Of a DNA stretch of 64,000 bases, positions 30,363-63,698 are shown in pieces (the stretch's first letter is position 1; every line of letters starts with the position of its first letter). The position numbers and the translations under genes are program-made. Origin of the DNA: an uncultured Clostridia bacterium (GTDB taxonomy: Bacteria; Bacillota; Clostridia; Christensenellales; Pumilibacteraceae); assembly GCA_947066105.1 (NCBI GenBank), contig CAMSYM010000002.1, forward strand, positions 1 to 64,000, read 5' to 3'. The notes beneath the pieces were generated by a model. The model saw only the letters and a list, made by a program, of their open reading frames with translations. It did no database searches and was not told where the DNA came from.

Positions 30363-30985
30363 TTTGGAATTCGGAATTAGGAATTCGGAATGCGGAATTG
30401 ATGACCGTTACGCGGTGAGTGAGCAATGTGCGGCTACGCCTAGATCTCTCCACTACACTCGCATACGCTCGTTTCGGTCGAGATGATGGGGGGGGGGTAA
30501 GTGGTTTGGCTATTCTTGCTTGCTTGGTCGAGATGATGGGGCGAGTGAAACTACTTTGCTATACTTGATTAGAAAGGTTATCCGCAACAAACACGCCCAT
30601 CATTTCGAGCGGAGCAGGTGAAGAAGCACAATTAATACTAACGATATTTAGAATTGTAAAATATCGTTTATAGTAACAAAAAACTACGCGTAGCCTCCGG
30701 CTACCGAGAAATCAAGGCGAACCGCCGCATAGTGACCGAGTAATTCGGAATTCGGAATTATGGTCAAATCAATATTTATGCGGCTACGCCCGGATCTCTC
30801 CGCTACGTGCGCAAGCGCACTTCGGTCGAGATGATGGGGTAGGTGTAAAAATTTACTTGTCATCCTGAGCAACGCGAAGGATCTCAACCATATAAAGTAA
30901 ATAAGGACGAGATTGCCTACTGTACTTCGCTTGTTCGGAATAAGGCTATGCATTGCTACGTAGGACAAAAAGTTATCCATGCGCA
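30363..30985. repeat. Intergenic repeat block 6 with a G10 tract
   Basis: AATTCGGAATTAGGAATTC words are followed by hairpin core copies at about 30449-30497 and 30793-30840. Between them lie the 'CATCATTTCGAGCGGAGC' segment and a GCGTAGCCTCCGGCTACCGA hairpin. A second-family fold-back lies at about 30862-30974 (CATCCTGAGCAACGCGAAGG to GCTACGTAGGACAAAAA). The first core ends in a G10 tract (30488-30497), while most copies have G4. Confidence 0.85.
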
Positions 30986-42733: not shown

Positions 42734-42762
42734 TTGACATTTCGAATAATATATGATATTAT
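42734..42762 (+). promoter_or_regulatory. Promoter of the second BspA-type lipoprotein
   Basis: TTGACA at 42734-42739, 17 bases, TATTAT at 42757-42762. It fixes the start of translation downstream, at 42845. Confidence 0.8.
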
Positions 42763-42844
42763 TATACCGATGACAACGGTGTCGCAAGCTATTGCGGCGC
42801 CGTTTTGCGTTATGTCACGGAAGTTGAAAGTGAGAAGGATCGGT

Positions 42845-43915
42845 ATGAAAAAAAGATATTGTTTATTGCTTTTTACGGTAGTCGCAGTGGTATGCGCGGC
42901 GTGTTTAACGGCATGCGGAACGGATAAGCGTCGGCTCGATACGCCGTCGGAGCTTGCCGTAGACGATTGCGATATCCTTACATGGAGCGAAATAGACGGT
43001 GCGAAAGGTTATACCGTAGATATAAACGGCGTAGAATACGAAGCGACGGAAAACGTCATGGATATTTTCAAAGCGACGTTGCGTCCCGATGTTTACAAAA
43101 TAAAAATATCGGCGTTCGGCAGCTTCGACGATAGCGACGTGTCCGAATGGTCGGAAGAGTACGAGTATAAGGTTTCCGATTTTTATCAAAACGGATTGCA
43201 AGTATACTTATGCGACGACGGTGCGGTAGAATTATCAGTAAAGGAAAAAGCGTATTTATCGGGTAAGATCTTTATTCCCGACGGAATCATGCGTATAGCG
43301 AAAGAAGCGTTCCGAAATTGCGATAAAATAACGGGCGTTTATATTTCGGAAAGCGTTGTCGAAATCGGCTCGTATGCTTTTGCGGAGTGTTCGTCGCTTA
43401 AAAGGATAACGTTTCCCGACGGTTGCAATACTATCCCGAGCTCTTGTTGTATGGAAGATACAGCCTTGCGGCAGGCGGATATCCCAGACGGCGTGGAAAG
43501 GATAGGTTTGTTTGCATTTTTGGGTTGTATCGATCTGTCCGAAATTAGTTTGCCCGAAAGCGTGATTTATATAGAAAATTGCGCCTTTGAGAGATGTGAA
43601 AAGCTTAAAAATATAATATTGCCGAGCAGACTGAGAGCTATCGAACGTTATACTTTCTCATACTGTGTCGGTTTGGAATCCGTGCATATCCCGCAAGACG
43701 TTAAAACGATAGATAGCAGTGCGTTTATATATTGTTCGAGCTTGTCCGAAATAAGCGTCGACGACGAAAACGATAAGTATATAGTCGACGGGAACTGCCT
43801 TATTCGCAAAGCGGATAATGCCGTTGTGTTGGGCGGAAGCGAAGTCGCTATACCCGACTATGCGACCGAAATAGCATCTAACGCTTTTTTTACAGGAAGG
43901 GTTTGCGGTCGATAA
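42845..43915 (+). CDS. BspA-type leucine-rich-repeat lipoprotein, 5' part of a frameshifted gene
   Basis: The first 356 residues of a lipoprotein. The signal peptide ends in LTAC (MKKRYCLLLFTVVAVV onward). A fibronectin-type-III-like domain follows (DILTWSEIDGAKGYTVDING, about 40-110), then BspA-type repeats (AFLGCIDLSEISLPESV). AAGGAT precedes ATG 42845. The frame ends at 43915, after a T7 tract (43885-43891). With eight T's it would continue as SNAFFYRKGLRSITVPEG into the next frame. A single-base loss at this tract therefore splits one gene, by phase variation, mutation or sequencing error. Confidence 0.85.
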   Translation: MKKRYCLLLFTVVAVVCAACLTACGTDKRRLDTPSELAVDDCDILTWSEIDGAKGYTVDINGVEYEATENVMDIFKATLRPDVYKIKISAFGSFDDSDVSEWSEEYEYKVSDFYQNGLQVYLCDDGAVELSVKEKAYLSGKIFIPDGIMRIAKEAFRNCDKITGVYISESVVEIGSYAFAECSSLKRITFPDGCNTIPSSCCMEDTALRQADIPDGVERIGLFAFLGCIDLSEISLPESVIYIENCAFERCEKLKNIILPSRLRAIERYTFSYCVGLESVHIPQDVKTIDSSAFIYCSSLSEISVDDENDKYIVDGNCLIRKADNAVVLGGSEVAIPDYATEIASNAFFTGRVCGR

Positions 43916-44760
43916 CCGTGCCGGAAGGCGTGCTCACGATACATCAAACGGCGTTCAATTATTGCGACGGGTTGACAGACGTGGCGTTACCGTCCACGTT
44001 GACGCAACTGCAATTTCAAGACAACGGGGGGGGGTATCATGCGTTTAGATTTTGCGCAAATTTGGAAAGTATAGTCATATCCGAAAAAAACGCGAAGTAT
44101 AAAGTCGACGGAAATTGTCTTATTCGCAAAGCGGATAACGCCGTGGTGTTCGGTTGCAAAAATAGCGTCATTCCCGATTATGCGGAGATCGTTTGCGTCG
44201 ACGCTTTCAGTAGAGTTGTCGGCTTGACGGATATCGTTATCCCGTACGGAGTCAAGAGTATCGAATGCGGCGCATTTGCCGAAACGGGCTTAACAAGCGT
44301 ATTTATACCGTCGAGCGTAGTCGAAATAGAAACGGAAGCGTTTTCTGGAGTTACGGTATATACGTCGTTTTCGGAATGGCAACCGAAATGGGACGTATAT
44401 GGGGTTGTCCCTTTCGGCGGCGTTCAAAAGGCGGCGTTTCACGAGTGCATTATATTTTACGGTTGCGGTGCGGACGGCGATCGCGGGAATTACGTTGTTT
44501 CCTTGGCGGACGCAACTGCCGTAGAAATTGTATACAGCGGGCAAAACAACGTCGTAGGCGAAAAATTGTTTAACGATCCGCGAGCGCCTAAGCGCGACGG
44601 CTATAAATTCGACGGGTGGGCGACGGAGAGCGGCAACGCGCCGAGCTATTTGCCGTATGAATGCGGCGACGGAGTTATTGCCTCATTATCGGCAAAACAG
44701 CGCGAAGGTATAGCTCAAGGTACGAGTTTATACGCCGTTTGGTCGCCGCTCGATAAATAA
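43903..44760 (+). CDS. BspA-type leucine-rich-repeat lipoprotein, 3' part of the frameshifted gene
   Basis: The continuation of the lipoprotein in the next frame: more repeats (GVLTIHQTAFNYCDGLTDVAL) and a C-terminal InlB/flg_new-type beta repeat (PRAPKRDGYKFDGWATESGN). It has no ribosome site or signal of its own, so it is not a separate gene. It contains a G9 tract at 44026-44034 (QDNGGGYHAF). A DNA direct repeat of about 40 bases occurs at about 43785 and 44104 (the CLIRKADNAVV segments), which could recombine. Confidence 0.8.
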   Translation: MRSITVPEGVLTIHQTAFNYCDGLTDVALPSTLTQLQFQDNGGGYHAFRFCANLESIVISEKNAKYKVDGNCLIRKADNAVVFGCKNSVIPDYAEIVCVDAFSRVVGLTDIVIPYGVKSIECGAFAETGLTSVFIPSSVVEIETEAFSGVTVYTSFSEWQPKWDVYGVVPFGGVQKAAFHECIIFYGCGADGDRGNYVVSLADATAVEIVYSGQNNVVGEKLFNDPRAPKRDGYKFDGWATESGNAPSYLPYECGDGVIASLSAKQREGIAQGTSLYAVWSPLDK

Positions 44761-48761: not shown

Positions 48762-48798
48762 TAAACATACTCGAAGGATAAATGCAGGGAGCGTGATC

Positions 48799-49554
48799 TT
48801 GTTAAAGCTTGCGATAGTGGAAAACGACGGCGAGCAGGCGGCGCGGCTGGAAGGGTACGTGCGCAGGTTCGAAGATGAGTTCGGCGAAAAATGCGACGTC
48901 GTGGTTTTTCGCGACGGCGTGGATATAGTCAGCGATTACACGGGCGATTTCGATGGCGTGTTTATGGATATAGATATGCCTATGATGGACGGTATGACCG
49001 CCGCCGAAAAGATCAGAGAAACGGACGAACGGGTTTGCATAGTTTTTGTGACCGATCTCGCGCAGTACGCCTTGCGCGGATATAAGGTGAACGCGCTCGA
49101 TTATTTGGTAAAGCCTGTCGATTACTTTGAATTTTCCATAGAATTGAAAAAAATGATCCGCAGTAAAAAAGCGAACGCGAGCGAGTATATATGGCTGTCG
49201 GCGCAGGGTGCGGGCAAAAGGGTGTCGTTGCAGGATATAGCGTATGTGGATATTTTGGCGCACGATATACGGATACATGTGGACGGCGCGCGTAAGGACG
49301 AAATAGTTTTTCGCGGCACGCTGAAAGATATAGAAGAACGGCTGGACGGCAAACCGTTTTCGCGCTGTCATAATTGTTATATAGTTAATTTGCGATACGT
49401 TACGAGCGTTGACGGTGACGAGATCCTGCTCGAAAACGGCGAAAGGGTGTTTATCAGCCGCAACAGGAGAAAGAAATTCATGACCGATCTTACCAATTAT
49501 ATCGCGGTCAACGGCGGATACGCTCGAAAATCACGGGGGGGGGGTATAGAATAA
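48799..49554 (+). CDS. LytTR-family response regulator, TTG start, G10 tract near the end
   Basis: This 251-residue regulator starts at TTG 48799 (AGGGAG seven bases upstream). The receiver domain spans 1-120, with phospho-acceptor Asp57 in VFMDIDMPMMDG and the conserved Lys in YLVKPVD. The LytTR DNA-binding domain spans about 135-235 (FSRCHNCYIVNL is typical). The last codons contain a G10 tract (49535-49544) encoding RGGG. A change of one base would alter the tail and the spacing or overlap with the kinase gene, which starts two bases after the stop. Confidence 0.92.
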   Translation: MLKLAIVENDGEQAARLEGYVRRFEDEFGEKCDVVVFRDGVDIVSDYTGDFDGVFMDIDMPMMDGMTAAEKIRETDERVCIVFVTDLAQYALRGYKVNALDYLVKPVDYFEFSIELKKMIRSKKANASEYIWLSAQGAGKRVSLQDIAYVDILAHDIRIHVDGARKDEIVFRGTLKDIEERLDGKPFSRCHNCYIVNLRYVTSVDGDEILLENGERVFISRNRRKKFMTDLTNYIAVNGGYARKSRGGGIE

Positions 49555-49555
49555 C

Positions 49556-50833
49556 ATGCTTTCCAATCCCTTTGTGTTTATCAGGTATATCGGATTTTTC
49601 TCGTTCTTTTCGGAGCTTGCGATAATACAGTTTTTATTCATGCGCAAATTTGCGCGCCGATCGTTCTTTTGGATACGATTGCTTGTCGGTACGGCTGTCG
49701 GCGTGGTGTTCGTATTTATGCCGAGCCTTTCGGCGGGACCGGTCGGGTTTGCATATTTCGTAGTGCTTGCGTATGTAGTGGGATTTGCGACGTTTTGCTT
49801 TAAGGCGAACGTATTCAACTGTATATTCTACGGGCTTGCGGCATGGGCGGTCCAACACATGGCGTGGAGCTTTTATCTTATAGCGTGCATGCTGTTCAAA
49901 ATGGATACCGCCGTTACGGTAACGGTATACATTTCTATTTATGCGGCGACGTATACGGCGACTTTCTTTGCTTTTTCGTTCGGGCGAAACGATCACGTGA
50001 TACACCGCGAACGACTTATGGCGGGCGTGATCTCTGCGGTGGTGTTGTTCGTGACGACGGTGCTGTATGATTTTTCGGTCGCGCAGGACGGTAATTCGGT
50101 TTGGACGTCGTTGTATGCGGCGATACTGTCGCTCACTATACTGTTCGTTCAGTTCGGAATACTGTCCAAGGATTTTTTGCGGCGCAAAAGCGAGCAGTTG
50201 GAGCTTGATAAGGCGACGCTCGAAAAGTTGTTGTACAGTCGTAATAAACAGCAAATGCTGACTAACGAAACGGTGGAAATAATCAACCGTAAGTGTCACG
50301 ACCTTAAACACCAAATATCTTTGTTGCGGTCGGAACAGGGCGCGTGCAAGGATGCGTTTCTCGACGAGATAGAAAAGGCGGTCATGGTTTACGGCGATAT
50401 AGCCAAAACGGGCAATAACGCGCTCGATATTACTTTGACGGAAAAGTGTTTGCTGTGCGGCGAGCGCGGGATCAAGTTTACTTATATAGTGGACGGCGAA
50501 AGCCTTGATGCGCTCGATCCCGTCGACGTGTCGGCGCTGTTCGGGAATATTTTGGACAACGCGATAGAAAGCGTCGCGCGCGAACCCGACGATCGAAAAA
50601 TAATCAGACTCAACGTTTCGGTCGTTCACGGGTATTTGCGCATACATTGCGAAAACTATTGCGGACACGAAGTTGTGTTCGCGGACGGACTGCCCGCGCC
50701 CGACGCCCAAAAGGGCGAGTATCACGGATTCGGCACGCGCAGTATAAGGTACATTGCCGAAAAGTACGACGGCAACGTCGTGATGGAGCGCAAGGACGAG
50801 TTGTTTAACGTTAATATAATAATTCCGATTTGA
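49556..50833 (+). CDS. GHKL sensor histidine kinase (AgrC/NatK-like)
   Basis: This 425-residue kinase has six or so membrane helices over about 1-215, a coiled dimerisation stretch, the phospho-acceptor His in NRKCHDLKHQISLL (about 245), and a GHKL ATPase domain with N-box NILDNAIESV and G-box GFGTRSIRYIAEKYDG. This architecture suits detection of a peptide or membrane signal. Its ATG is 11 bases after the G10 tract, which is the only purine-rich ribosome site available. The partner is the upstream LytTR regulator. No AgrD-like peptide gene was seen. Confidence 0.92.
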   Translation: MLSNPFVFIRYIGFFSFFSELAIIQFLFMRKFARRSFFWIRLLVGTAVGVVFVFMPSLSAGPVGFAYFVVLAYVVGFATFCFKANVFNCIFYGLAAWAVQHMAWSFYLIACMLFKMDTAVTVTVYISIYAATYTATFFAFSFGRNDHVIHRERLMAGVISAVVLFVTTVLYDFSVAQDGNSVWTSLYAAILSLTILFVQFGILSKDFLRRKSEQLELDKATLEKLLYSRNKQQMLTNETVEIINRKCHDLKHQISLLRSEQGACKDAFLDEIEKAVMVYGDIAKTGNNALDITLTEKCLLCGERGIKFTYIVDGESLDALDPVDVSALFGNILDNAIESVAREPDDRKIIRLNVSVVHGYLRIHCENYCGHEVVFADGLPAPDAQKGEYHGFGTRSIRYIAEKYDGNVVMERKDELFNVNIIIPI

Positions 50834-50839
50834 AAGAAT

Positions 50840-51480
50840 TATGAATTAAGATAATTAAGAATGCGTAATGATTGTAAATGGGATTCGGAATTAGGAATTC
50901 GGAATGCGGAATTACGGTCGATGAAGTATTATTGCGGCTACGCCTAGATCTCTCCGCTACACTCGCTTTGCTCGTTTCGGTCGAGATGATGGGGTGAGTG
51001 GTTTGGTTATTCTCGCTTGCCTGGTCGAGATGACGGTGGGGGGAACGGTTTTGCTATGCTTGATTGGAAAGTGATCCGCAACACCCCCCCCATCATTTCG
51101 AGCGGAGCAAGTGAAGAATTACAATTAATACAAACGATATTCGGAATTGTAAGATATGGTTTATCGTAACAAAAAACTACGCGTAGCCTTCGGCTACCGA
51201 GAAATCAAGGCGATCCGCAGCAGGGAGAATAAGTAATTCGGAATTCGGAATTACGGTTGATGAAGTATTAGTGCGGCTAACGCCTAGATCTCTCCGCTAC
51301 GTGCGCAAAGCGCACTTCGGTCGAGATGATGGGGTGAGTGGAATGGCGTTGCTATGCTTTTTATATATTGATAAAATAGAGTGCAAAAATGTATTGCAAT
51401 TTTATATAGAAAAGCAAACAACACACACATCCATCATTTCGAGCGTGGCGAGAAATTCCATCGTTATAAATATTTGTATT
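50840..51480. repeat. Intergenic repeat block 9
   Basis: Two composite units about 341 bases apart have hairpin cores at about 50946-50994 and 51286-51334. Between them lie a C8 tract (51074-51081), a 'CATCATTTCGAGCGGAGC' segment and a GCGTAGCCTTCGGCTACCGA hairpin. Another CATCATTTCGAGCG copy lies at 51432. From 51480 to 51580 the DNA is A-rich, with TATAAT at 51557-51562 as a likely -10 of the first GH3 gene (no clear -35). Confidence 0.85.
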
Positions 51481-51595: not shown

Positions 51596-54500
51596 ATGGC
51601 AAAAACCAAAAGGATCTTGCGAGGCTTGGGTATGGCTTCCGCGGTAATGCTTGCGGCGTCTATAACGTGCGGCTCTATCATGGAACAGTATCCCGCCCCG
51701 CTCGACGCGCTGTTCGGAACGTTAAGTTCCAAGGTGGTCTCGGAAAAGACCGAGGAAAAGGACTGGATCTACGAATCGAAGTTCAAGACGGCAAAGGAAG
51801 CATTCGACGGCTTTAAAGAGTTTGCGATAAGGGAATCGCACGAAACGTTCGCATTGCTCAAAAACAACAATGCGGCGTTGCCGATCTCCAAAACCGCGAA
51901 AGTGACGATGATGGGCTTGCGCAGTTATGCGCCGGTGTACGGCAACAGCGGCGGCAGTATCGCCGATAAAAAGACGGTAGAGAACGGCAATACCATTACC
52001 GACGCGTTCAAAGGTAGCGGCTTTCAACTCAACCCGTCCATGCTCAAAGCTTACGAAGAATATTGCGGTACTCTTACTTGGGGCGGCAAAGGTTTCGGCG
52101 CAACGCCGCCGGAGTATGTCGGTCTCGCGGATACAGGCGTGATCTCCGAATTGAGCAAGGCGGAGCTTGCGCAATACAACCCCGATTTCGCGAGCGAATA
52201 TGCGCAATATAACGACGCGGCGATAGTGGTAGTAGGGCGTCCCGGCGGCGAAAACAAAAACTACGTGCCGGGCGGACAGGATACCGCTACGGGTAATGTT
52301 TTCGGACTGTCGGTCAAAGAAAAAGAGATCATCAAAGAAGCAAAGGACAACTTCGATAAAGTTATCGTTCTTGTCAATTCCACGTGCCAGATGGAGCTTA
52401 AAGAGCTTAAAGACGACCCGGACATCGACGCGATATTGTGGGTAGGTTTTCCGGGCGCGTACGGTTTTTGGGGCGTAGCGGACGTGCTTAACGGCACGGC
52501 GAACCCGTCGGCATATCTCGGCGATATTTACGCCGCCAATTCCGACGTCAATCCCGCCATGATGAATTTCGGCGCGGAAACGCCGTGGGTCGATGCGGAA
52601 GACTTCGATAAGGCAAGCAACGTCAATTCGTATCTCGTTCAGGCGGAAGGTATTTACACGGGTTATCGTTATTACGAAACGCGCTACGAAGACTACGTTT
52701 ACGGACAGGGCAATGCGGCGTCCGCATCGGCGGGAACGTTTGTTAATTCCGACGCGACTGCGGCAACTACCGACGGGACGTGGAATTACGATTACGAGGT
52801 AGTATATCCGTTCGGCTACGGAATGTCGTATACTTCGTTTAAGCAAACGCTCGATTCCGTGCAGATCATGGGCAACAAGCGTACTGCCAACGTTACGGTC
52901 ACCGTGACGAACACCGGAAACGTTGCGGGTAAGAGCGTGATCCAACTATACGCGCAAACGCCGTATACCGAATACGACAAAAAGTACGGCGTGGAAAAAG
53001 CGTCGGTGCAATTGATGGATTTTGAAAAGACGAACTTGCTTGCGTCGGGATCGAGCCAAACTATAACGATGGAAGTCGATCTTGCCAATCTTGCGAGCTA
53101 CGATTATACTCATGCAAAGACTTTTATCGCGGACAACGGAGATTACTACTTTGCGATAGGCGATAACAGTCACGATGCGCTTAATAACATTATAGCCGCG
53201 AAAGGCGTCAATGCCGAGCAAAAGGCGAGAATGTCGGGCGAAGGGAACGCCGCCAAAACGTATAAATGGACGTGGAACGACGGTAATTTCGAGGGCGTAG
53301 ACAACCGCACGTTCTCGGTAGCCGCTACGGGCGATGTAAACATTACCAATCGTTTGTCGGAAGGCGAGTCGGCTATGGACTTTAATTACTTTAAACCGGG
53401 TACGGTCACATATCTTTCGCGCAGCGATTGGAAAGGCACTTATCCCAAAACTTACAGCGGGCTTTCGGCTAAAACGACGGACGAGCTTTATAAGCTTTTG
53501 AGCTGCGATTTTATCCCGCTCAAAACGAACGACGATACTTCATCGTTTAAATGGGGCGATACGACAAGCTCGCTCACGCTCAACGACATGAAAGGCGCGG
53601 ATTGGGAAGACTCGCGTTGGGCGGAGATAATAGATAAGGTAACTATCGACGAATTCTTGACTTTTGCTTCGAAAGCTTTTCATAATATAGAGCAGATACC
53701 GTCGGTAGGGTACAACGGCAACAATGCGGACGACGGTCCCGGCGGATCGGATACGCACTACTTCGAAGAGGGACAGTATAAGGGCACGCCGTACGCCGAC
53801 GCCGAAAATTACAAGGGTTACGGCACGCGCGTCGCGCCGTCGCCCACAAACCTTGCGTACAGCTGGAACAAAGAACTTGCTTACGAGAACGGCGAGATCA
53901 TTCTCGGCGAAAGCACGCTCGTACTCAATTTGCCCATCATGATCGGTCCGGGCGGCAATATCCACCGCCATGCCTATAACGGGCGCGGCGCGGAATATTA
54001 CAGCGAGGACCCTATGCTTTCGGGCTATATAGGAAGCGCGGTCGTGCAGGGCGCGCAAAGCAAGGGTACGCTCGTCAACATCAAGCATGCGGCGTTCAAC
54101 GACCAAGAGATCAACCGTAGCGGAATAGCAGTATTCATGAACGAGCAAAAGGCGCGCGAACTCGAACTTCGCAATCTTCAACAGATGTTTATCGCCGGCG
54201 GAAAGCCTGCGTCGTTCAAGGCGGACGAGAGCAAAGACGATACGTATAAGCTCGGCGCGCTCGGCGTAATGACGTCGTATAACCGTATCGGTGCGGTGCC
54301 GCCCAGCGCGAACAAAGGTTGCATGGTGGATATCATGCGCAACGAGTGGGGTTTCCGCGGCTACAACGTAACCGACTTTACGGGGCTTTCGCTCAAAGCG
54401 TCGCCCAAAGAATCCATACTTTACGGCACTACCGCATTCTGCGGATTCGGCGGAAGCATGGACTATTGGAATGCGGAAACGCTGTCCAAAGATGCGGATA

Positions 54501-54727
54501 TGTGCGCGGCTATTAAACAAGACATCAAATACGTTTTGTATTCGCTCGCTAACAGCGCGGCGGTAAACGGCACCAACAACACCACGCACCGCGTTCAACT
54601 GATGTCGACCTGGCGCAAGCTTTACAAGAGCTTGGAAGGCGTGTTCGGCGCGCTTACGGGCTTGCTCGTTTGCGGTTGGATAGCGCTCGAAGTGCTTGAT
54701 ATCGTTAAAAAGAAGGAGGAAGCATAA
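51596..54727 (+). CDS. Membrane-tethered GH3-family beta-glycosidase with permuted domains (copy A)
   Basis: This 1043-residue enzyme has a membrane segment at each end (about 10-28, and FGALTGLLVCGWIALEVL before KKKEEA). The (alpha/beta)6 domain comes first (HETFALLKNNNAALPISK, GFPGAYGFWGVADVLNG), then a Fn3-like domain, then the TIM-barrel part. The barrel part has DGPGGSD, GPGGNIHRHAYNGRGAEYYSEDP, IKHAAFNDQE and the nucleophile region RGYNVTDFTG. That order is permuted relative to most GH3 enzymes, as in some rumen beta-glucosidases. AAGGAGG precedes ATG 51596. It is coupled to the four-helix protein gene two bases downstream. The exact glycoside is unknown. Confidence 0.9.
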   Translation: MAKTKRILRGLGMASAVMLAASITCGSIMEQYPAPLDALFGTLSSKVVSEKTEEKDWIYESKFKTAKEAFDGFKEFAIRESHETFALLKNNNAALPISKTAKVTMMGLRSYAPVYGNSGGSIADKKTVENGNTITDAFKGSGFQLNPSMLKAYEEYCGTLTWGGKGFGATPPEYVGLADTGVISELSKAELAQYNPDFASEYAQYNDAAIVVVGRPGGENKNYVPGGQDTATGNVFGLSVKEKEIIKEAKDNFDKVIVLVNSTCQMELKELKDDPDIDAILWVGFPGAYGFWGVADVLNGTANPSAYLGDIYAANSDVNPAMMNFGAETPWVDAEDFDKASNVNSYLVQAEGIYTGYRYYETRYEDYVYGQGNAASASAGTFVNSDATAATTDGTWNYDYEVVYPFGYGMSYTSFKQTLDSVQIMGNKRTANVTVTVTNTGNVAGKSVIQLYAQTPYTEYDKKYGVEKASVQLMDFEKTNLLASGSSQTITMEVDLANLASYDYTHAKTFIADNGDYYFAIGDNSHDALNNIIAAKGVNAEQKARMSGEGNAAKTYKWTWNDGNFEGVDNRTFSVAATGDVNITNRLSEGESAMDFNYFKPGTVTYLSRSDWKGTYPKTYSGLSAKTTDELYKLLSCDFIPLKTNDDTSSFKWGDTTSSLTLNDMKGADWEDSRWAEIIDKVTIDEFLTFASKAFHNIEQIPSVGYNGNNADDGPGGSDTHYFEEGQYKGTPYADAENYKGYGTRVAPSPTNLAYSWNKELAYENGEIILGESTLVLNLPIMIGPGGNIHRHAYNGRGAEYYSEDPMLSGYIGSAVVQGAQSKGTLVNIKHAAFNDQEINRSGIAVFMNEQKARELELRNLQQMFIAGGKPASFKADESKDDTYKLGALGVMTSYNRIGAVPPSANKGCMVDIMRNEWGFRGYNVTDFTGLSLKASPKESILYGTTAFCGFGGSMDYWNAETLSKDADMCAAIKQDIKYVLYSLANSAAVNGTNNTTHRVQLMSTWRKLYKSLEGVFGALTGLLVCGWIALEVLDIVKKKEEA

Positions 54728-55313: not shown

Positions 55314-56216
55314 TCAATGCGCCGACGGGCGAGAAGAGTTGTTAGTATTAACGAACGTGATGACTTCGTCGGTCTTGATCATTATTTTATCGGGATTGCA
55401 ACCCGCTGAGCCGCCGGTGATCGAAACGGTATTTTCGCCTGCTACGAGATCTATGGTGAATTCCACTTCGGTAAAGTGGCTGTACGCCACGCCGTTTTTG
55501 GTGTCGTCGGGAGCTAAGCCCGTAAGCCCTTCGAGTTTTTTGCCAGCTACGTCGAGCGGCGCGCCGTTAAACTTCATAGCGGGCGCGGTCTCGCCGTCGA
55601 GCGGTACTTCGGGGATGCTGGTAGCGCCCCACGGTGCGCTTGACGACGACATGCGGATGTATAAGGTAACGGTGCAAGCTTTTTCCGCTTTGAACTTCCA
55701 TGTGATCGTTTGTTTGCCTGCCGTTTCCGCGCTACCGCCGAAATATCCTATATTGGTGACAAGCGGACCGGAAGTGTAGTCGCCCGATGCGACCCATTCG
55801 CGACGGTTGTATTCTACGGTCATCGTTTTGTTGGATGCAACGTCGCCGTCGTCGAGTTCTGCGAACTCTGCTTCGAAATGATATACGCCGTCTATGGGTT
55901 TTACGGGCGCGGCGTCGAATCGTTTGCATATTTTGCAAATGCCGTTCTCGAATTCATGCGCGGCTTTGTCGCCTTTTTCGTCGCTGTGCGCGCAGGTCGC
56001 GGCATGCCAGTGTTCGTTTTCGTCGCTTTCCCATTTTATATTGTAAATGTGAGTATGCCCTGTCATATCGGTTTCGCACACGTCGCAAATACCGTCGGCG
56101 TTCAAGTCGTAGTGTTTGGTATGCGGGGCTTCGCCTTGTGCGCACGCCGTAAACAGCGCGCCTACGGCAAGAGTAAGCGCCGATGCGGCGGCTATGGCAA
56201 TCGATTTTCTTTTCAT
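55314..56216 (-). CDS. Lipoprotein with His/Cys module and carbohydrate-binding-like domain
   Basis: This 300-residue lipoprotein has a signal ending in the lipobox FTAC. A His/Cys-rich segment follows over about 30-105 (GICDVCETDMTGH, ESDENEHWHAATC, GICKICKR). It is closely similar to the module in the BspA lipoprotein at 37562. Residues about 110-280 look like a CBM6/CBM35-type beta-sandwich (YHFEAEFAELDDGDV, then CTVTLYIRMSSSS, then LVAGENTVSITGGSAGCNPDKIMI). This supports binding of a glycan near the GH3 enzyme. GGAGG precedes the ATG pair at 56219/56216. Confidence 0.85.
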   Translation of the reverse strand: MKRKSIAIAAASALTLAVGALFTACAQGEAPHTKHYDLNADGICDVCETDMTGHTHIYNIKWESDENEHWHAATCAHSDEKGDKAAHEFENGICKICKRFDAAPVKPIDGVYHFEAEFAELDDGDVASNKTMTVEYNRREWVASGDYTSGPLVTNIGYFGGSAETAGKQTITWKFKAEKACTVTLYIRMSSSSAPWGATSIPEVPLDGETAPAMKFNGAPLDVAGKKLEGLTGLAPDDTKNGVAYSHFTEVEFTIDLVAGENTVSITGGSAGCNPDKIMIKTDEVITFVNTNNSSRPSAH

Positions 56217-56388
56217 CATTGTTCCTCCGACAATAAATTTACGTTACGGCATGTTTTGCCGCCCGTTATCAATTTCAGTATAAATATCGGCATGTCGATT
56301 TGCAAGAAAATAATTTTGGTATTATGGCAAAAAGTTTGGATTTTGGCTGTTTGTCGTATTTGTCGGCGGTCGGAACCGAAAATTGCTA

Positions 56389-56695: not shown

Positions 56696-57475
56696 ATGTT
56701 ATTCGAAACAAACAGATCGATAGACAAGAACTATATATATACCCAAACCGACGATAATCTCACGTTTGTCAGCCATGTTCACAGCAGTTACGAGTTTATT
56801 ACGGTTTTCGACGGGGAACTCGAATGCGTGGTTTATCACGAGCGGGTAAAGCTTACGCCGGGCAAGGCTATGCTCATAATGCCCAATACCGTACACAGTT
56901 ACAGCACGGTAGGCTCGTCCAAGAGTTTTCTGTGCGTGTTCTCGCCCGACTACATTTCCGATTTCTTTAACGATGCGAACGTCGGAGTACGCGGGGGGGG
57001 GGTATATTCTTTGTTCGACTTTAACGACTCGCTCGGAATAGAGTTATTAAAGGATAAATCGACTAATAAGTACATGCTGAAATCCGTACTGTACGGATTT
57101 TGCGGCGCGGCGGCGCCGTATATAGTAAAGGGCTACGACAAGGGCGCGGACGGCGAGCTGTCCGTCAAGCTTTTGTATTACATTCAGGAAAATTACGATA
57201 AACCGATAAGCCTTAAAATGATAGCGGGCGAAATGGGTTATAACTATACGTATCTTTCAAACGTGTTCAACAAAATATTCGGGTGCGGCTTTTCTCGGTT
57301 CGTCAACAGGTTTCGCGTCGAGAACGCCGCCGAGCTTTTGCGTACCACCGATAAGAGCATGGTGCAAATAAGCAATGCCTGCGGCTTTGAAAGCATACGC
57401 AGCTTCAACGAACAGTTTAAGCTCGATTACGGGGTTACGCCTACCGATTTCCGCGCGCGGCAAAGAACGGTATAA
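56696..57475 (+). CDS. AraC-family regulator with cupin sensor, G10 tract in frame
   Basis: This 259-residue regulator has an N-terminal cupin (HVHSSYEFITVFDGELE, about 27-85) and a C-terminal pair of HTH motifs (ISLKMIAGEMGYNYTYLSNVF and ISNACGFESIRSFNEQFK, about 160-255), ending with the conserved GVTPTDFR. Between them lies a G10 tract (56993-57002, residues 100-102, VRGGGVY). Loss or gain of one G gives a stop 11-13 codons later and a cupin-only product of about 112 residues. The gene sits between the two GH3 modules and probably controls them. The ribosome site is weak. Confidence 0.92.
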   Translation: MLFETNRSIDKNYIYTQTDDNLTFVSHVHSSYEFITVFDGELECVVYHERVKLTPGKAMLIMPNTVHSYSTVGSSKSFLCVFSPDYISDFFNDANVGVRGGGVYSLFDFNDSLGIELLKDKSTNKYMLKSVLYGFCGAAAPYIVKGYDKGADGELSVKLLYYIQENYDKPISLKMIAGEMGYNYTYLSNVFNKIFGCGFSRFVNRFRVENAAELLRTTDKSMVQISNACGFESIRSFNEQFKLDYGVTPTDFRARQRTV

Positions 57476-57499: not shown

Positions 57500-58140
57500 C
57501 AGTTTCTTTGTCATCCCGAACAAGCGAAGCGCAGTGAAGGATCTCATCTTTATTTATTATTTATAAGGATGAGATCCTTCGCGTTGCTCAGGATAGTCTG
57601 GGGCTACTGCGTAGGACAAAAGAGAGTGATACAAAAGATTTCTCGACTACGCCTACAGCTCCGCTCGAAATGACACATAAATGGCGGAGATCCTTCGGTG
57701 GGCAAAAAACGCTCAGAATAGCCTGCGGCTGCTGCGTAGGACAAAAAAAGCATAATACATTGCTCTTACTAACTTGATTACCCGTAGGGGTCATCAATTC
57801 CGCATTACGAATTACTCGTTCCCCATGCGGCGGATCGCCTTGATTTCTCGGTAGCCGAAGGCTACGCGTAGTTTTAGTTTTCTATAATTACAGTTTATCG
57901 TTCTTACGAATAAATCAATAATACTGCTTTTACTCTAGCTCCGCTCGAAATGATGTGGTGTTTGGTTGTGGATTGCGTTTTTATATAATATATAGAAACG
58001 CTGTTCCACTCGCCCCATCATCTCGACCGAAACGAGCGTATGCGAGTGTAGTGGAGAGATCTAGGCGTAGCCGCACATTACTCAATCACCGCGTAGCGGT
58101 CATCAATTCCGCATTGTAAATTCCGCATTCATAGCTTTGC
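57500..58140. repeat. Intergenic repeat block 10
   Basis: A second-family fold-back lies at about 57508-57620 (CATCCCGAACAAGCGAAGCG to GCTACTGCGTAGGACAAAAG). Partial copies follow (57700-57750), then GTAGCCGAAGGCTACGCGTA and CTCCGCTCGAAATGATG. A reverse-oriented hairpin core lies at about 58014-58062. AATTCCGCATT words close the block. From 58140 to 58398 the DNA is mostly A/T-rich leader, with AAGGAGG before the GH3 copy B start; its promoter is unclear. Confidence 0.85.
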
Positions 58141-58398
58141 TTTGTCGTCGCTTTCGGCTGCTTCGCGGGACAAAAGAACGGAGTAACAAAAATTCTTAAT
58201 TGTCCACAGCGCCGAATCAACATTATATATATAGTTGTTGATATGCGAATATGTAATAAAGAAACAATGTCCGTTAAAAAGTCGCGCACCTAAACTTTTT
58301 GCTATAATACCGAAATTTTTTTCTTGAAATCGTCCTCCGAATTATTTATCATGAAATTGTAATGGGTCAACCCGTTAATATGTTCAAGGAGGACAATA

Positions 58399-61311
58399 AT
58401 GAGAAAAAGCAAACTATGGCTTGGATTGTCGGGCTTAATGGTATTTATACTTACCATTATGTTGTCGTTGACGATCCTTGCCAACACCTATGCCGGTTAC
58501 ATCAACGACTTTTTCGGACTGACGACGAGCGGATTGAAGCTCAAAGGCAGTTCGTACGGCGATGAAAACGGCGAACTCACCGACAAAGGTTACGAGAATC
58601 TTATAGCGGATTCGTACGACTTTTGTACTCAGCTCGAAGAAGAAGGCTCCGTACTGTTGAGAAACGACGGGGTGCTACCGCTTAAAGAAACCGAACGCAA
58701 CGTCACGTTGTTCGGCGGTAGCAGCGCCAATATACGTTACCGCAGCGGCGCGGGCGGTCCTACGCCGAACGATGCTTACGTCATCGATCTTGGCAAGGCG
58801 TTTACCGATGCGGGATTTAATATCAATCAAACGTTGTATGAAAAATACAAGGCTTATATGGATAACAATCACCGCGTCGATATCAACAGAGTCGGCGAAG
58901 TGCCTGCCAATTTCCACACGTCGGCGATCCAGGCTACATACGACGATTATAACGATGCGGCGATCGTCACGTTTGCGCGTTACGGCACAGAGAACACCGA
59001 CCCGACGCTCGGAATAATGAAGCTCGATTCCAAAGAAGAAGCGCTGTTGAAAATGATTAACGACAGCGGTAAATTCGATAAGATAATCGTGCTTTTGAGC
59101 GGTCCGCTCCCCATGGAGCTTGGCTGGCTCGACAAATACAACGTAAACGCATGCTTGTGGTTCGGTAACCCCGGATATTACGGCTTGCCCGGCGTGGTCA
59201 ACGTGTTGAGCGGCAAAGCCAATCCTTCGGGACATTCCGTATTCACGTTTGCGGCTAACTCGATGGGTTCGCCCGCAATGGCTAACTTCGGCAGCTATAC
59301 GTTCACGTTCGACGGTTCGCCCGTCGATCCGACGTTCGGCTCGCACTACGTTGTATATAAAGAAGGTATCTACGTAGGGTACAAGTACTACGAGACCCGT
59401 TATGAGGACGCCGTGCTCGATCGCGGCAACGCGAAATCTACGGCAGGCGCTATCAGCGGCGCGTCCGAATGGAATTACGCCGACGAAGTATGCTTCCCGT
59501 TCGGATACGGCTTGTCGTATTCCGAGTATACGCAAACTCTCGACAGCGTTACTTACAATGCCCGCGACGACAAGTTCACCGCTAACGTCACGGTCAAAAA
59601 CACAAACAACAAAGCGGGTAAGTCCGTAGTGCAGATCTATGCGCAACAGCCTTATACCGACTACGACAAACAGAACGGCGTCGAAAAATCGGCTATCCAG
59701 CTCATGGATTACGAAAAGGTCGACGTTCCTGCGGGCGGCACCGTCAATGTGAGCGTCGAGTTCGACAGATATTTGCTTGCGTCGTACGACGAGAACGGCG
59801 ACGGCGGCTATATACTCGAACCGGGCGACTACTACTTTGCGGTAGGCAACGGTGCGCACGAAGCGCTCAACAACATAATAGGCGTCAAAAAGAGCGACAC
59901 CAAGCTCATCGATCACACGGGCAAGGCGTACACCGCCAATACCGCGGGCGTAAAAACCTATAAGCTCGACGGCGACGGTATCGACAGAACGACCTACAAA
60001 CAATCGCCTTACGACGAGGACGTGACCGTCGACAACAAGTTCGACGACGCCGATCTCAACTATTGGGCGGACGAAAACCAAAAGATCACGTACCTTACGC
60101 GTAACGATTGGGACGCAACTTTCCCGACCACCGTCAAGACGCTTCATGCCAACGAGAGAATAGTCGACGGCTTGCGTATGGATAAGTACAAGAAAGCGGC
60201 GGACGCTCCGTCGTACAGCGACGGCGAAGGCTCCGTCTATGCCGTAGAGCTTGCCGATCCCATCGACTTCGCGGACATGAAAGGCGTGCCTTACGACGAT
60301 CCGAAGTGGGATGAATTCGTATCTCAGCTTTCGTTGCAGGAACTGTGCATTTCGATAGGCGACGCGCGCGGTATCGCGGGCGTAGGCGCTATCAACAAGC
60401 CCGGCAACTCCATTGCCGAAGGTCCGGAAGGCATTCTCGCCAAGTTCAAGTACGGCGATAAACGCGCCGCTACCGGCTTCCCGACGTTGCCCACCGTCAC
60501 CGCTACGTGGGATCACGAAATGCAGACCAAGTACGGCGATCTGTTCGCCGAAGAAGCGTTGTTCTGCGGCGTCGCCATGATCAACGCGCCCGGTTGCAAC
60601 ATCATCAGAACTCCGTACAGCAGTCGCGCTTCGGAATACATGTCCGAGGACGGAATGCTGTCCTACTACTCGGTTTCCAACATCATCTACGCAATGCGCG
60701 AAAAGGGTCTTATTTGCAACGTTAAGCATTGCTTCCTTAACGAACAGGAGACCCACCGTCAGGGCGTTGCGACGTTCAGCAACGAGCAGGCTATCCGCGA
60801 GATATACCTGCGTCCGTTCGAAGGCGCGCTCACCAGAGGTCAAAGCTTGGGCATCATGACGTCGTACAACCGTATCGGCTTGCAATACGCCGCTACGCAC
60901 TCCGTGCTCATGGAAGACGTTATGCGCGGCGAATGGGCGTACAGAGGCTCGATCATCGACGATGCGCTTGCGCAAAGCCAGTATTACAGCTCCACCCCCG
61001 ACATGCTCATGGCAGGCACTAACATCTTCTGTCTCGACGCGGCAAGATCCAATCAAATGAAAACGCTTATCGAGAACACCGACGACGGCGCGTTGCTCAA
61101 AAAACTGCAAGAGTCCAACAAGTGGATATTCTACGCGCTCATCCATTCGTCCATGGCGGGAAGTATCGACGAGAACTACGTCTATACCGACAAGCTCGAA
61201 TGGTGGCAGTCCACGCTCATCGCGGTCGACGTGGTGATCGGTGCGGTCGCGGTCGGCGCGATAGTGATGTTTGCGCTCGGCACGTATCTCAAAAAGAAGG
61301 AGGAAAACTAA
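58399..61311 (+). CDS. Membrane-tethered GH3-family protein with permuted domains (copy B)
   Basis: This 970-residue paralogue of copy A has membrane helices at both ends (LMVFILTIMLSLTILANTY, and VVIGAVAVGAIVMFALGTYL before KKKEEN). Domain order is the same: sandwich domain (EEEGSVLLRNDGVLPLKETE, FGNPGYYGLPGVVNVLSG), Fn3-like, then barrel with GCNIIRTPYSSRASEYMSEDG, VKHCFLNEQE and RGSIIDDALAQ. The usual D-G-P-x-G motif is EGPEGIL here, and the nucleophile segment is atypical, so substrate or activity may differ from copy A. AAGGAGG precedes the ATG. The next gene follows one base after the stop. Confidence 0.9.
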   Translation: MRKSKLWLGLSGLMVFILTIMLSLTILANTYAGYINDFFGLTTSGLKLKGSSYGDENGELTDKGYENLIADSYDFCTQLEEEGSVLLRNDGVLPLKETERNVTLFGGSSANIRYRSGAGGPTPNDAYVIDLGKAFTDAGFNINQTLYEKYKAYMDNNHRVDINRVGEVPANFHTSAIQATYDDYNDAAIVTFARYGTENTDPTLGIMKLDSKEEALLKMINDSGKFDKIIVLLSGPLPMELGWLDKYNVNACLWFGNPGYYGLPGVVNVLSGKANPSGHSVFTFAANSMGSPAMANFGSYTFTFDGSPVDPTFGSHYVVYKEGIYVGYKYYETRYEDAVLDRGNAKSTAGAISGASEWNYADEVCFPFGYGLSYSEYTQTLDSVTYNARDDKFTANVTVKNTNNKAGKSVVQIYAQQPYTDYDKQNGVEKSAIQLMDYEKVDVPAGGTVNVSVEFDRYLLASYDENGDGGYILEPGDYYFAVGNGAHEALNNIIGVKKSDTKLIDHTGKAYTANTAGVKTYKLDGDGIDRTTYKQSPYDEDVTVDNKFDDADLNYWADENQKITYLTRNDWDATFPTTVKTLHANERIVDGLRMDKYKKAADAPSYSDGEGSVYAVELADPIDFADMKGVPYDDPKWDEFVSQLSLQELCISIGDARGIAGVGAINKPGNSIAEGPEGILAKFKYGDKRAATGFPTLPTVTATWDHEMQTKYGDLFAEEALFCGVAMINAPGCNIIRTPYSSRASEYMSEDGMLSYYSVSNIIYAMREKGLICNVKHCFLNEQETHRQGVATFSNEQAIREIYLRPFEGALTRGQSLGIMTSYNRIGLQYAATHSVLMEDVMRGEWAYRGSIIDDALAQSQYYSSTPDMLMAGTNIFCLDAARSNQMKTLIENTDDGALLKKLQESNKWIFYALIHSSMAGSIDENYVYTDKLEWWQSTLIAVDVVIGAVAVGAIVMFALGTYLKKKEEN

Positions 61312-61312
61312 G

Positions 61313-61738
61313 ATGGATATCAAGGCGTTGATCAAAAATAAAGGTATCGGCTATTGGATATGCACCGGCGCGTCGGTACTGTCGTTGATACTGGCTATCA
61401 TAGTTTTCGCGAGCTGGGATAACGCGCTTCCCAATGCGGTCACCGACGGTTATCTTATAGGCATCGTGCTTATATTCCCGATACTCATCCAAGCCGCGGT
61501 AACGTTCTTTCCCATCAGATTCACCAATGTTTTATCGGTGATCTTGTACGGGATAGCGTTCGGTCTTACGGCTCTGCGCGTGGCGGCGGCGTTTGCCGAC
61601 TTCTTCAACAACGTCGCGTATCAGGGCGGACAGTTCGGCATGTGCGTATTCTATGCCGTAGCGGTCATCGTTCTCGGCGTTGCGGGAGTAGCTTCGTGCT
61701 TCTTTAAGCAAACTAAGGACGAGAAGTATATCATCTAA
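61313..61738 (+). CDS. Small four-helix membrane protein, partner of GH3 copy B
   Basis: This 141-residue protein has four membrane helices: GIGYWICTGASVLSLILAII, YLIGIVLIFPILIQAAVTFF, LSVILYGIAFGLTALRVAAA and GMCVFYAVAVIVLGVAGVAS. It has a basic N-terminus (MDIKALIKNKG) and a charged C-terminus. A loop NNVAYQGGQF between helices 3 and 4 matches the position of the long loop in the copy A partner. AAGGAGG lies in the end of the GH3 gene. The family is unknown to me. Conservation of the pairing across the duplicated modules argues for a shared function with GH3. Confidence 0.8.
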   Translation: MDIKALIKNKGIGYWICTGASVLSLILAIIVFASWDNALPNAVTDGYLIGIVLIFPILIQAAVTFFPIRFTNVLSVILYGIAFGLTALRVAAAFADFFNNVAYQGGQFGMCVFYAVAVIVLGVAGVASCFFKQTKDEKYII

Positions 61739-61838: not shown

Positions 61839-63698
61839 ATGAAAAAACGCAGTTTGATATTGTGCGGAGCGCTGGCTTTCGGCGTTGCGCTCGGCGGATT
61901 TGCGCTCGCCGCTTGCGGTGAGACCGAGGAACCCGATCCGCCGCAAATTACCGAAACGGTAAGATATTCCGAAAAGACAAATCCGTATAAGGACGTTACC
62001 TGGCAGGAGATAAAGGACATAACCGATTGGACGGAGAAAGCCAAAGATACGAGCGAGATATATTATCAGTTCGAAGGCTCGTATTCTGAAGCTTATCAGG
62101 AAAACTATTCCCGAAATTTCATGCTGATGAATTGCTATAAGGACGGCGGCTTACACGCGACGTTCGGCAACGAAAATTACTACGGGTATTGGACGAACGT
62201 CGACCGTAAGGGCAAAACGCTCGTATCGTTGCACGTGCTTCGCTATCAAGACAGTCAGTACAACAACGGCGCGTACGACGTCATTTGCGAAAGCATGAGC
62301 CACGACTATTACGAGTATTCGTCCAACATGCCTATAATCATGTTCACCAACCAAATGCGCAGTTGCTTGATAAGCGGCGGACATTATTCGCAGATAGAAA
62401 GCCTGACCGTCGAAGGCGGGCAAACGGCTTGCGTTCTCGGCGATTCGTTCTCGACCGAAGGCTTGCAAGTGACGATCAACCGCGAAGACGGCAAATCCAT
62501 ATTGATCGACTCGCAATGGTACGGAAAGGGCAACTGTCCCGTAACGTTCTCCGGGTTCGACTCGTCCGTAAAAGGCGATACCGAAGTTACTTTGAGCTAT
62601 AAAAACACCGACGTAACGGCTAAGTATAATTGCAGCGTGATGGGGCTTAAAGGTATTACGTTGGACACGTCGAAGATAAAAGCCAATTATCACGTAGGCG
62701 ACGAGCTTGACACGACAGGACTCGTGGTGAACGCTACGCGCGACGACGACGGTATTTCCGCGGTCGAAGCGCGGCGCTATAAGATATACGGATTCGACAG
62801 CAAGACCGAGGGCGAAAAAACGCTCACCGTCAAGTATGACGATAAAGACGAACACACAGCCACGTTTACAGTAAACGTTTACGGAATAAAGAGCTTGGAC
62901 GTGGATTCCGAAAACGTTAAAAAAGAATATTTCGTAGGCGATAAGATCGACTTGAAAGGGCTTGTAGTCAACGCAACGTTCAACGACGATCTTACCGACG
63001 AAATAGACGTAGGTCGTGTTACGATAGAAGGCTTTGACACGAGCGCCGCTACCGAGAGCCAAGAAGTTACCGTAAAGTATCAAGGGCTTTCGCAGACCTA
63101 TAATATCAAGGTCGTTGCGCCCGAATATACGGGTACCGGCAAGTACGGCGAAACAAAGGGCGACGTTAAGCTTAAAATAGTTACGCCCACAATGTGCGAA
63201 TTCACGTTCGACGGTAAAACCACTCCGCTCGGATACACCACGCTTAAATTCGGAAATACCGTTGTTTACGGGCTTGCAAAAGCGACGGATATGACAATAA
63301 CCGATGACGAGTTTGCCGGTTTGCACAAACAGTTCGCGCTCGACAGCGAAGATATGTCTTTGTCCATGATCACAGTCTACGAAATTCCCGACGACGATTA
63401 CGGCGAGGGTTCGATCCGTTTCGAGCAAGAGCCTATGCCCGGTATCGGCGGATATACCGAGTTGCGTTTCGTGCTTATAGACGAGGATAAGGGTCAAGCC
63501 ACGATCACTTATAAGTATTGGAACGGCGGAAACAGCGATACGTTCGTTTGCAAATATACGATAGAAGGCAATATTTTCACGTTTACCGATCTTATTTCTC
63601 AGCAAGTGGGCGGTAGCGGCGCAAATTACAGCAATCTGTATAAGACATGGCAAATGAACGAAGACTTCACCATGACAAAATATAAGCCTGCGGCATAA
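61839..63698 (+). CDS. Lipoprotein with repeated bacterial Ig-like domains
   Basis: This 619-residue lipoprotein has a signal ending in LAAC. An N-terminal globular domain of unknown type follows (about 50-190). Three Big_3-like Ig repeats lie at about 195-430, marked by SFSTEGLQVTINRED, VGDELDTTGLVVNATRDDD and VGDKIDLKGLVVNATFNDD. A C-terminal domain with a lipocalin-like feel follows (IEGNIFTFTDL, then WQMNEDFTMTKY). ACAAGGAGG lies upstream of the ATG. It is 100 bases after the four-helix gene and ends at a terminator, so it is probably the third gene of the GH3 copy B operon and a surface binding protein. Confidence 0.85.
   Translation: MKKRSLILCGALAFGVALGGFALAACGETEEPDPPQITETVRYSEKTNPYKDVTWQEIKDITDWTEKAKDTSEIYYQFEGSYSEAYQENYSRNFMLMNCYKDGGLHATFGNENYYGYWTNVDRKGKTLVSLHVLRYQDSQYNNGAYDVICESMSHDYYEYSSNMPIIMFTNQMRSCLISGGHYSQIESLTVEGGQTACVLGDSFSTEGLQVTINREDGKSILIDSQWYGKGNCPVTFSGFDSSVKGDTEVTLSYKNTDVTAKYNCSVMGLKGITLDTSKIKANYHVGDELDTTGLVVNATRDDDGISAVEARRYKIYGFDSKTEGEKTLTVKYDDKDEHTATFTVNVYGIKSLDVDSENVKKEYFVGDKIDLKGLVVNATFNDDLTDEIDVGRVTIEGFDTSAATESQEVTVKYQGLSQTYNIKVVAPEYTGTGKYGETKGDVKLKIVTPTMCEFTFDGKTTPLGYTTLKFGNTVVYGLAKATDMTITDDEFAGLHKQFALDSEDMSLSMITVYEIPDDDYGEGSIRFEQEPMPGIGGYTELRFVLIDEDKGQATITYKYWNGGNSDTFVCKYTIEGNIFTFTDLISQQVGGSGANYSNLYKTWQMNEDFTMTKYKPAA

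Follow-up and report, generated by a model that had tools for sequence, protein, structure and literature searches.

An uncultured Clostridia bacterium carries a run of ten G (G10) within the gene of an AraC-family regulator that adjoins a GH3 glycoside hydrolase gene. Does this tract switch the locus on and off? We examined this question in the 64,000-nucleotide stretch of DNA that holds the gene (the window), across the genome and in related genomes. The two features at issue are the following.

56696..57475, plus strand: AraC-family regulator with cupin and HTH, 259 aa, intact; in frame (ON) in the assembly
56993..57002, plus strand: G10 tract, the proposed slippage switch; GGG codons 100-102 of the AraC gene

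We consider it probable, from sequence comparison, that the G10 is a homopolymer contingency site that switches a regulator with a local role, activating the GH3 operon and a lipoprotein gene. In the proposed mechanism, replication slippage, presumably occurring in living populations and reversible, would alter the number of G, and unless G were gained or lost in threes, AraC would end soon after the cupin, before the HTH. At the promoters of the GH3 operon and the divergent lipoprotein gene, full-length AraC, the presumed binder, would occupy two repeats that overlap the -35 and would activate transcription of both, presumably rather than repress it. Truncated AraC could not bind or activate these promoters, so the locus would stay OFF until the tract slipped again, with a presumed effect on sugar use.

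Position and length of the G tract

The tract lies between the domains of the regulator. Pfam matches above cut-offs were Cupin_2 (residues 24-80), AraC_binding (14-79), HTH_AraC (163-204) and HTH_18 (176-255), giving the N-terminal cupin and C-terminal double HTH of the AraC/XylS family. In silico, one G fewer gave a 114-aa product ending at TAG, the 13th codon past the tract, and one G more gave a 109-aa product ending at TAA, the 11th codon from the tract start. A one-base change in the tract thus switches the product, as either shift halts ahead of the HTH. The preliminary description had made the same claims, placing the tract at 56993-57002 between cupin and HTH and calling either shifted product cupin-only. 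Coordinates and Pfam domains bear out the placement, both stops are correct, though counted there from different starting points, and neither product retains the HTH. In an AlphaFold model, which was built on four sequences with a mean pLDDT of 68.8 and is indicative only, residues 95-103, including the window tract, form a predicted loop between helix 88-94 and strand 104-108.

The G run in the AraC gene is longer than chance gives, by both shuffling and codon redrawing. Runs of G of lengths 3 to 10, on both strands of the window, numbered 783, 97, 9, 2, 0, 2, 1 and 3. Because counts drop to zero at G7 and climb again at G8-G10, we treat long runs as a separate population. The window held 13 matches to G8 (overlapping matches, in six tracts); 100 dinucleotide-shuffled versions averaged 0.39. 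When synonymous codons were redrawn with the AraC protein fixed and window codon usage (GGG, 10.7% of Gly), runs of at least 8 arose in 1.1% and runs of at least 10 in 0.35% of 50,000 draws. With the usage of four neighbour genes, runs of at least 8 arose in 0.49% and runs of at least 9 in 0.055% of 20,000 draws. A scan of IMG/VR viral contigs for the tract flanks gave 0 matches, and megablast of the AraC gene against phages found no match.

Variation of the tract among orthologous loci

A scan of genome contigs yielded four AraC orthologues (L061-L064); a fifth locus, L065, matched over 78 residues only. A profile search of 74 family genomes (18 genera), in which 13 of the 74 matched at E <= 1e-30, added two more, from G036 (L184) and G037 (L185/L195); L063 and the G016 copy are one locus. 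The orthologue set thus comprises seven loci, window included. Synteny was kept in all seven, with AraC, GH3, a small membrane protein and a Big_3 lipoprotein, and the GH3 proteins of the six relatives were 58-70% identical to that of the window. In L064, the other lipoprotein gene, read from the opposite strand, separates AraC from GH3. The window features of this unit, and the AraC tracts of the seven loci, are listed below.

58399..61311, plus strand: GH3 glycoside hydrolase, 970 aa, predicted AraC target; Pfam order GH3_C, Fn3-like, GH3_N
61271..61738, plus strand: small membrane-protein-like ORF after GH3, with an ATG inside its frame; order kept in relatives, without a Pfam match
61839..63698, plus strand: Big_3 lipoprotein (Pfam), end of the conserved GH3 unit by relatives' synteny

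Window AraC: G10, codon 100, in frame
L062 AraC: G10, codon 99, in frame
L184 AraC: G9, codon 145, in frame
L064 AraC: G8, codon 147, out of frame
L185 AraC: G12, codon 144, out of frame
L061 AraC: longest G run 5, gene open
L063 AraC: longest G run 6, gene open

Tract length and frame vary among the relatives' AraC genes in this between-species comparison. Tracts of G8-G12 occupy the inter-domain linker of five of the seven loci, at two different sites, and two of the five are out of frame, a pattern that supports the phase switch proposed in the preliminary description. The cupin half ends 7 codons past the tract start in L064 and 16 codons past it in L185, and the HTH half of each remains open in another frame. 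In the model, the second tract site corresponds to a position close to the end of helix 121-147, a region where most of residues 134-149 have pLDDT below 50. The long tract is not universal, since L063 has only G6 and L061 is a counter-case, with the same Gly residues as L062 but a GGA that breaks the run. Codon-level conservation without length change, which had been named as evidence against a switch, therefore fails for the set overall, as orthologue tracts vary, but does describe L061. The 13 weaker homologues (L186-L194 and L196-L199; E from 7.7e-61 to 7e-31) had no run of at least G8 on either strand of the fetched stretch.

An ordinary Gly-rich linker that happens to use GGG, with selection on the protein and no switching, is an unlikely explanation. 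It would account for L061 and L062 both encoding WGGGNG, the former without a long run. However, GGG makes up only 0-7% of Gly codons in the genes adjoining the five in-frame AraC genes, and when these five were redrawn with neighbour-gene usage (for L184, taken from one gene only), runs of at least 8 appeared in just 0-0.5% of redraws. A Gly linker also does not predict that tracts recur at a second, non-homologous site or that the frame is lost at the tract in two orthologues.

The out-of-frame copies bear on another alternative, in which RNA polymerase or the ribosome slips on the G run and full-length and short AraC are made in a fixed ratio, with no heritable phases. Their open HTH halves would be expected if some full-length product were made, and poly-A transcriptional slippage giving in-frame products is reported for Buchnera in the part of PMC2831843 consulted. 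We nevertheless regard this alternative as very unlikely, because orthologue tracts range from G8 to G12 with frame changes, differences in length and frame that indicate DNA-level change over evolution, and because the promoter-spacer tracts described below cannot work through translation. Programmed frameshifting was also considered and ranked below DNA slippage.

Predicted targets of the regulator

The regions upstream of GH3 in the seven loci (155-350 bp) share a block whose best 16-mer had 106 of 112 matches; the highest value in 12 shuffled upstream sets was 82. The block is operator-like, 41 bp long, and consists of two repeats, one TAAACTTTTTGCCAT-like and one CAAACTTTTTTCTTGA-like, 21 bp apart. 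A matrix built from the seven GH3 sites was run on the window and on all loci fetched by then (about 282 kb around tracts, plus other loci).

58291..58331, plus strand: predicted AraC operator before the GH3 gene; present in 7/7 orthologous GH3 upstream regions, which are the matrix training set
56298..56338, minus strand: same block before the divergent lipoprotein gene; score 44.1, outside the training set
55314..56219, minus strand: lipoprotein-like protein, 301 aa, predicted AraC target; without a Pfam match
51632..54727, plus strand: neighbouring GH3 gene, a separate module; upstream operator match above 20 absent

Outside the training set, sites scoring above 40 occurred solely before the AraC-adjacent lipoprotein gene (window 44.1, L061 42.2, L062 44.8, L064 45.1, the last copy listed as L169); five shuffled versions of the window reached 9.3 at most. 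The untrained block was thus present in all four loci where the lipoprotein gene was found. The window lipoprotein is 52% identical to its AraC-adjacent counterpart in L061. Weaker matches (20.3-30.4) occurred in L174 and in four loci whose AraC homologues are distant (L193, L194, L189 and L199).

At the GH3 promoter, the second repeat overlaps the -35 TTGAAA (58324-58329), followed by a 17-bp spacer and the -10 TATCAT (58347-58352). The lipoprotein promoter has -35 TTGCAA (56305-56300) and -10 TATACT (56282-56277). In the AraC araI1-I2 arrangement, repeat half-sites lie about 21 bp apart and overlap the -35 of target promoters, and repeats overlapping the -35 suit an AraC-type activator. Repeats 21 bp apart that overlap the -35 are conserved at the predicted AraC targets, as judged from sequence only. 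This block links the GH3 locus to a local regulator, most probably this AraC. The earlier suggestion that expression of the glycoside locus could flip gains comparative support from the conserved operator-promoter block before both the GH3 and lipoprotein genes.

Long G tracts across the genome and lineage

The genome contains 58 runs of at least G8 (28 forward, 30 reverse; length 8-11), a setting that the preliminary description had overlooked. We note that tract places were assigned by eye, and that genes beyond those given to Pfam come from a simple gene caller. Nine tracts lie between -35 and -10 (L067, L072, L073, L074, L082:7696, L084, L089, a C run, L095:5748 and L104). Eleven are in frame in genes (window 44026 and 56993, L070, L075, L081, L083, L096, L100, L101, L102 and L103, the last counted because its receiver-LytTR frame is open through the tract), and two are in genes with a broken frame (L088 and L106:3024). 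Eleven lie at the 3' end of a gene or where two genes meet (window 49535, L069, L077, L085, L086:2977, L087, L097, L098, L107, L108 and L109). The other 25 of the 58 are in intergenic repeats or elsewhere, without an assigned role. The junction tract of the window and its flanking genes are as follows.

49535..49544, plus strand: second G10, at the 3' end of the LytTR response-regulator gene, 11 nt before the histidine-kinase start
48793..49554, plus strand: LytTR response regulator (Pfam)
49556..50833, plus strand: GHKL histidine kinase (Pfam)

Promoter-spacer tracts were also found in relatives. The pattern TTGAC-N2-12-G7+-N0-6-TATNNT matched eight times in this genome, three times (two sites) in G016 (one genome with G022), six times in G023 (the genome of L064) and once each in G020 and G021; the reversed pattern, our control, had 0 matches in all genomes searched. 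In G023, C74 and C88 carry the same promoter at G8 and G7; we considered them as one polymorphic locus and rejected this, as the flanks identify diverged copies.

The long-tract habit is wide but patchy in the lineage, as counts ranged from 0 to 58 across 20 genus genomes and from 1 to 72 in 12 picked family genomes. Loss of MutS as the cause of tract instability was ruled out by the presence of MutS_I in 20/20 genus genomes. In the congener G001, the seven tracts read (L175-L180) were longer, at G10-G15; they included tracts in promoter spacers and one in the final codons of an AraC homologue.

Orthologous tracts in a second species

Pairing tracts of this genome with those of G016 by matching flanks revealed differences in length and frame. 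A LytTR regulator is broken at G10 in L106 but open at G9 in L147, and a surface protein is likewise broken at G10 in L088 and open at G9 in L155. At the response regulator-kinase junction, the window G10 ends in RGGGIE-stop, whereas the apparent orthologue L142, with G11, continues 19 codons beyond the tract; conversely, L109 reads on at G9 and L151 stops at G11. L102 is open at G9 (3009-3017), whereas the frame of L149, also G9, stops just past the tract. L086 and L143 both have G10, with slightly different tails. Unchanged pairs were L087/L145 (G10), L075/L156 (G9) and the promoter pair L074/L140 (G11). We left out L148, the G016 copy of the L103 gene, because junk at the contig end occupies the stretch preceding its tract. 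The L102 tract lies within a 2,187-codon open frame whose first domain is GH3.

Several junction tracts lie 7-14 nt ahead of the next gene's called start and so may double as ribosome-binding sites. At the kinase/regulator junctions of L085, L086, L143 and L162, an alternative frame enters the following gene, and a slip there could fuse two proteins.

Tract lengths and out-of-frame copies could instead reflect assembly or sequencing error. The relatives bearing record titles are metagenome assemblies, MAGs can mis-call G tracts, and Illumina trouble in reading through a G tract is described for Bifidobacterium breve in the part of PMC9187656 consulted. In G016, contigs C77 and C80 (L148, L150) end in GC-rich low-complexity junk at tracts, which points to difficulty in sequencing through them. 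However, error would not put tracts in promoter spacers, LytTR genes and AraC linkers, nor long tracts in the same place in two genomes (G11 in L074/L140, G10 in L087/L145), and we find this the least probable of the alternatives.

LytTR regulators beside GH3 genes

Long tracts were concentrated at LytTR regulator genes. The genome has 19 such genes (20 rows, one gene being split at its tract), and at 12 of the 19 a tract lies on the same strand, in the promoter, gene or kinase junction, compared with 0.29 tracts expected. A GH3 match lies no further than 8 kb from each of the 19; there are about 30 GH3 genes in this 2-Mb genome (30 genes from 32 rows). Tracts accompanied 10 of 23 LytTR genes in G016 (0.2 expected; two of the ten adjoin contig-end junk) and 4 of 11 in G023 (0.09 expected). 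By inspection, tracts were near 0 of 8 LytTR genes in G020 and 0 of 10 in G021, and G001 had 32 tracts and zero LytTR matches. In three genomes (L103, L148, L164), a response-regulator tract lies just ahead of the receiver FDIxFMDI stretch.

It is an even chance, in our estimate, that this gut lineage leaves the wiring of its glycan modules to chance. Slippery tracts in the activators, response regulators and kinases of many GH3 loci, or in their promoters (12 LytTR genes and this AraC in one 2-Mb genome), would then give per-cell ON/OFF combinations of glycoside hydrolase systems and a heritable bet-hedging on diet. If such switches operate, tract lengths in gut reads should vary and foretell which GH3 loci are expressed. 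Regulators that appear "broken" in MAG gene calls of such lineages may be one phase of a switch.

Comparison with known switches

Homopolymer phase variation is already known; the lineage is unexpected, and the targets, regulators beside glycoside hydrolases, are unusual. We note that the papers cited were consulted in part, and the comparisons apply to those parts. In Neisseria, phase variation at homopolymers falls into transcriptional, translational and C-terminal classes (PMC5320596). Tracts there, as here, lie between -35 and -10, in frame, and at gene 3' ends with tail switching or fusion, and our junction tracts match the C-terminal/fusion class. Unlike Neisseria, the present case concerns uncultured Clostridia, with many tracts in transcription regulators beside glycoside hydrolase genes. 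In a survey of 99 prokaryote genomes, coding genes held an excess of poly-A/T but not of poly-G/C tracts (Orsi et al., PMC2831843).

Among the matches listed, B. breve pili are the nearest gut-commensal precedent that we saw and bvgS the nearest regulator precedent. The B. breve pilus tract, a G tract in a coding frame of a gut commensal as here, was shown by deep sequencing to turn ON and OFF through replication slippage (PMC9187656). It lies in a pilus structural gene, with one or two tract-bearing pilus clusters per genome, whereas here a regulator is affected and the genome has 58 tracts. In Bordetella pertussis bvgS (PMC1891110), as proposed here, a tract in a regulator gene truncates the product and switches a regulon, but that tract is C6/C7 in a sensor kinase, whereas AraC is apparently a local activator. 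Two-component regulator genes are also altered at homopolymers in Campylobacter jejuni flgR/flgS (PMC8355987), where the tracts are poly A/T shorter than 7 and called non-reversible, in contrast to the G8-G11 in or beside 12 of 19 LytTR genes. MpeR, an AraC-like protein of the gonococcus considered as a phase-variable precedent, was set aside, as the portion of text consulted is silent on phase variation.

Among the matches listed from open-licence full-text literature, none concerned G-tract switching in uncultured Clostridia or in regulators of GH3 loci. The slippage switches in the cited papers mostly affect surface structures, many of them in pathogens, whereas those described here apparently affect glycan-locus regulators in a gut lineage.

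Other features of the window

A further in-window tract of the census is listed below. The BspA-type LRR gene that bears it looks split, with overlapping ORFs at 42734-43915 and 43903-44760; the overlap, near 43903-43915, is at some distance from the G9 at 44026.

44026..44034, plus strand: G9 in frame in a BspA-type LRR protein

Interspersed intergenic repeats occur at 30400-30800, 50900-51350 and 57530-58100, in forms with gtttcggtcgagatgat or gctcgaaatgat. Each form often precedes a G run, and inspection by eye attributes about 16 of the 58 long tracts to these repeats. The GH3 proteins encoded at 58399-61311 and 51632-54727, and those in L082 and L083, have GH3_C first and GH3_N last.
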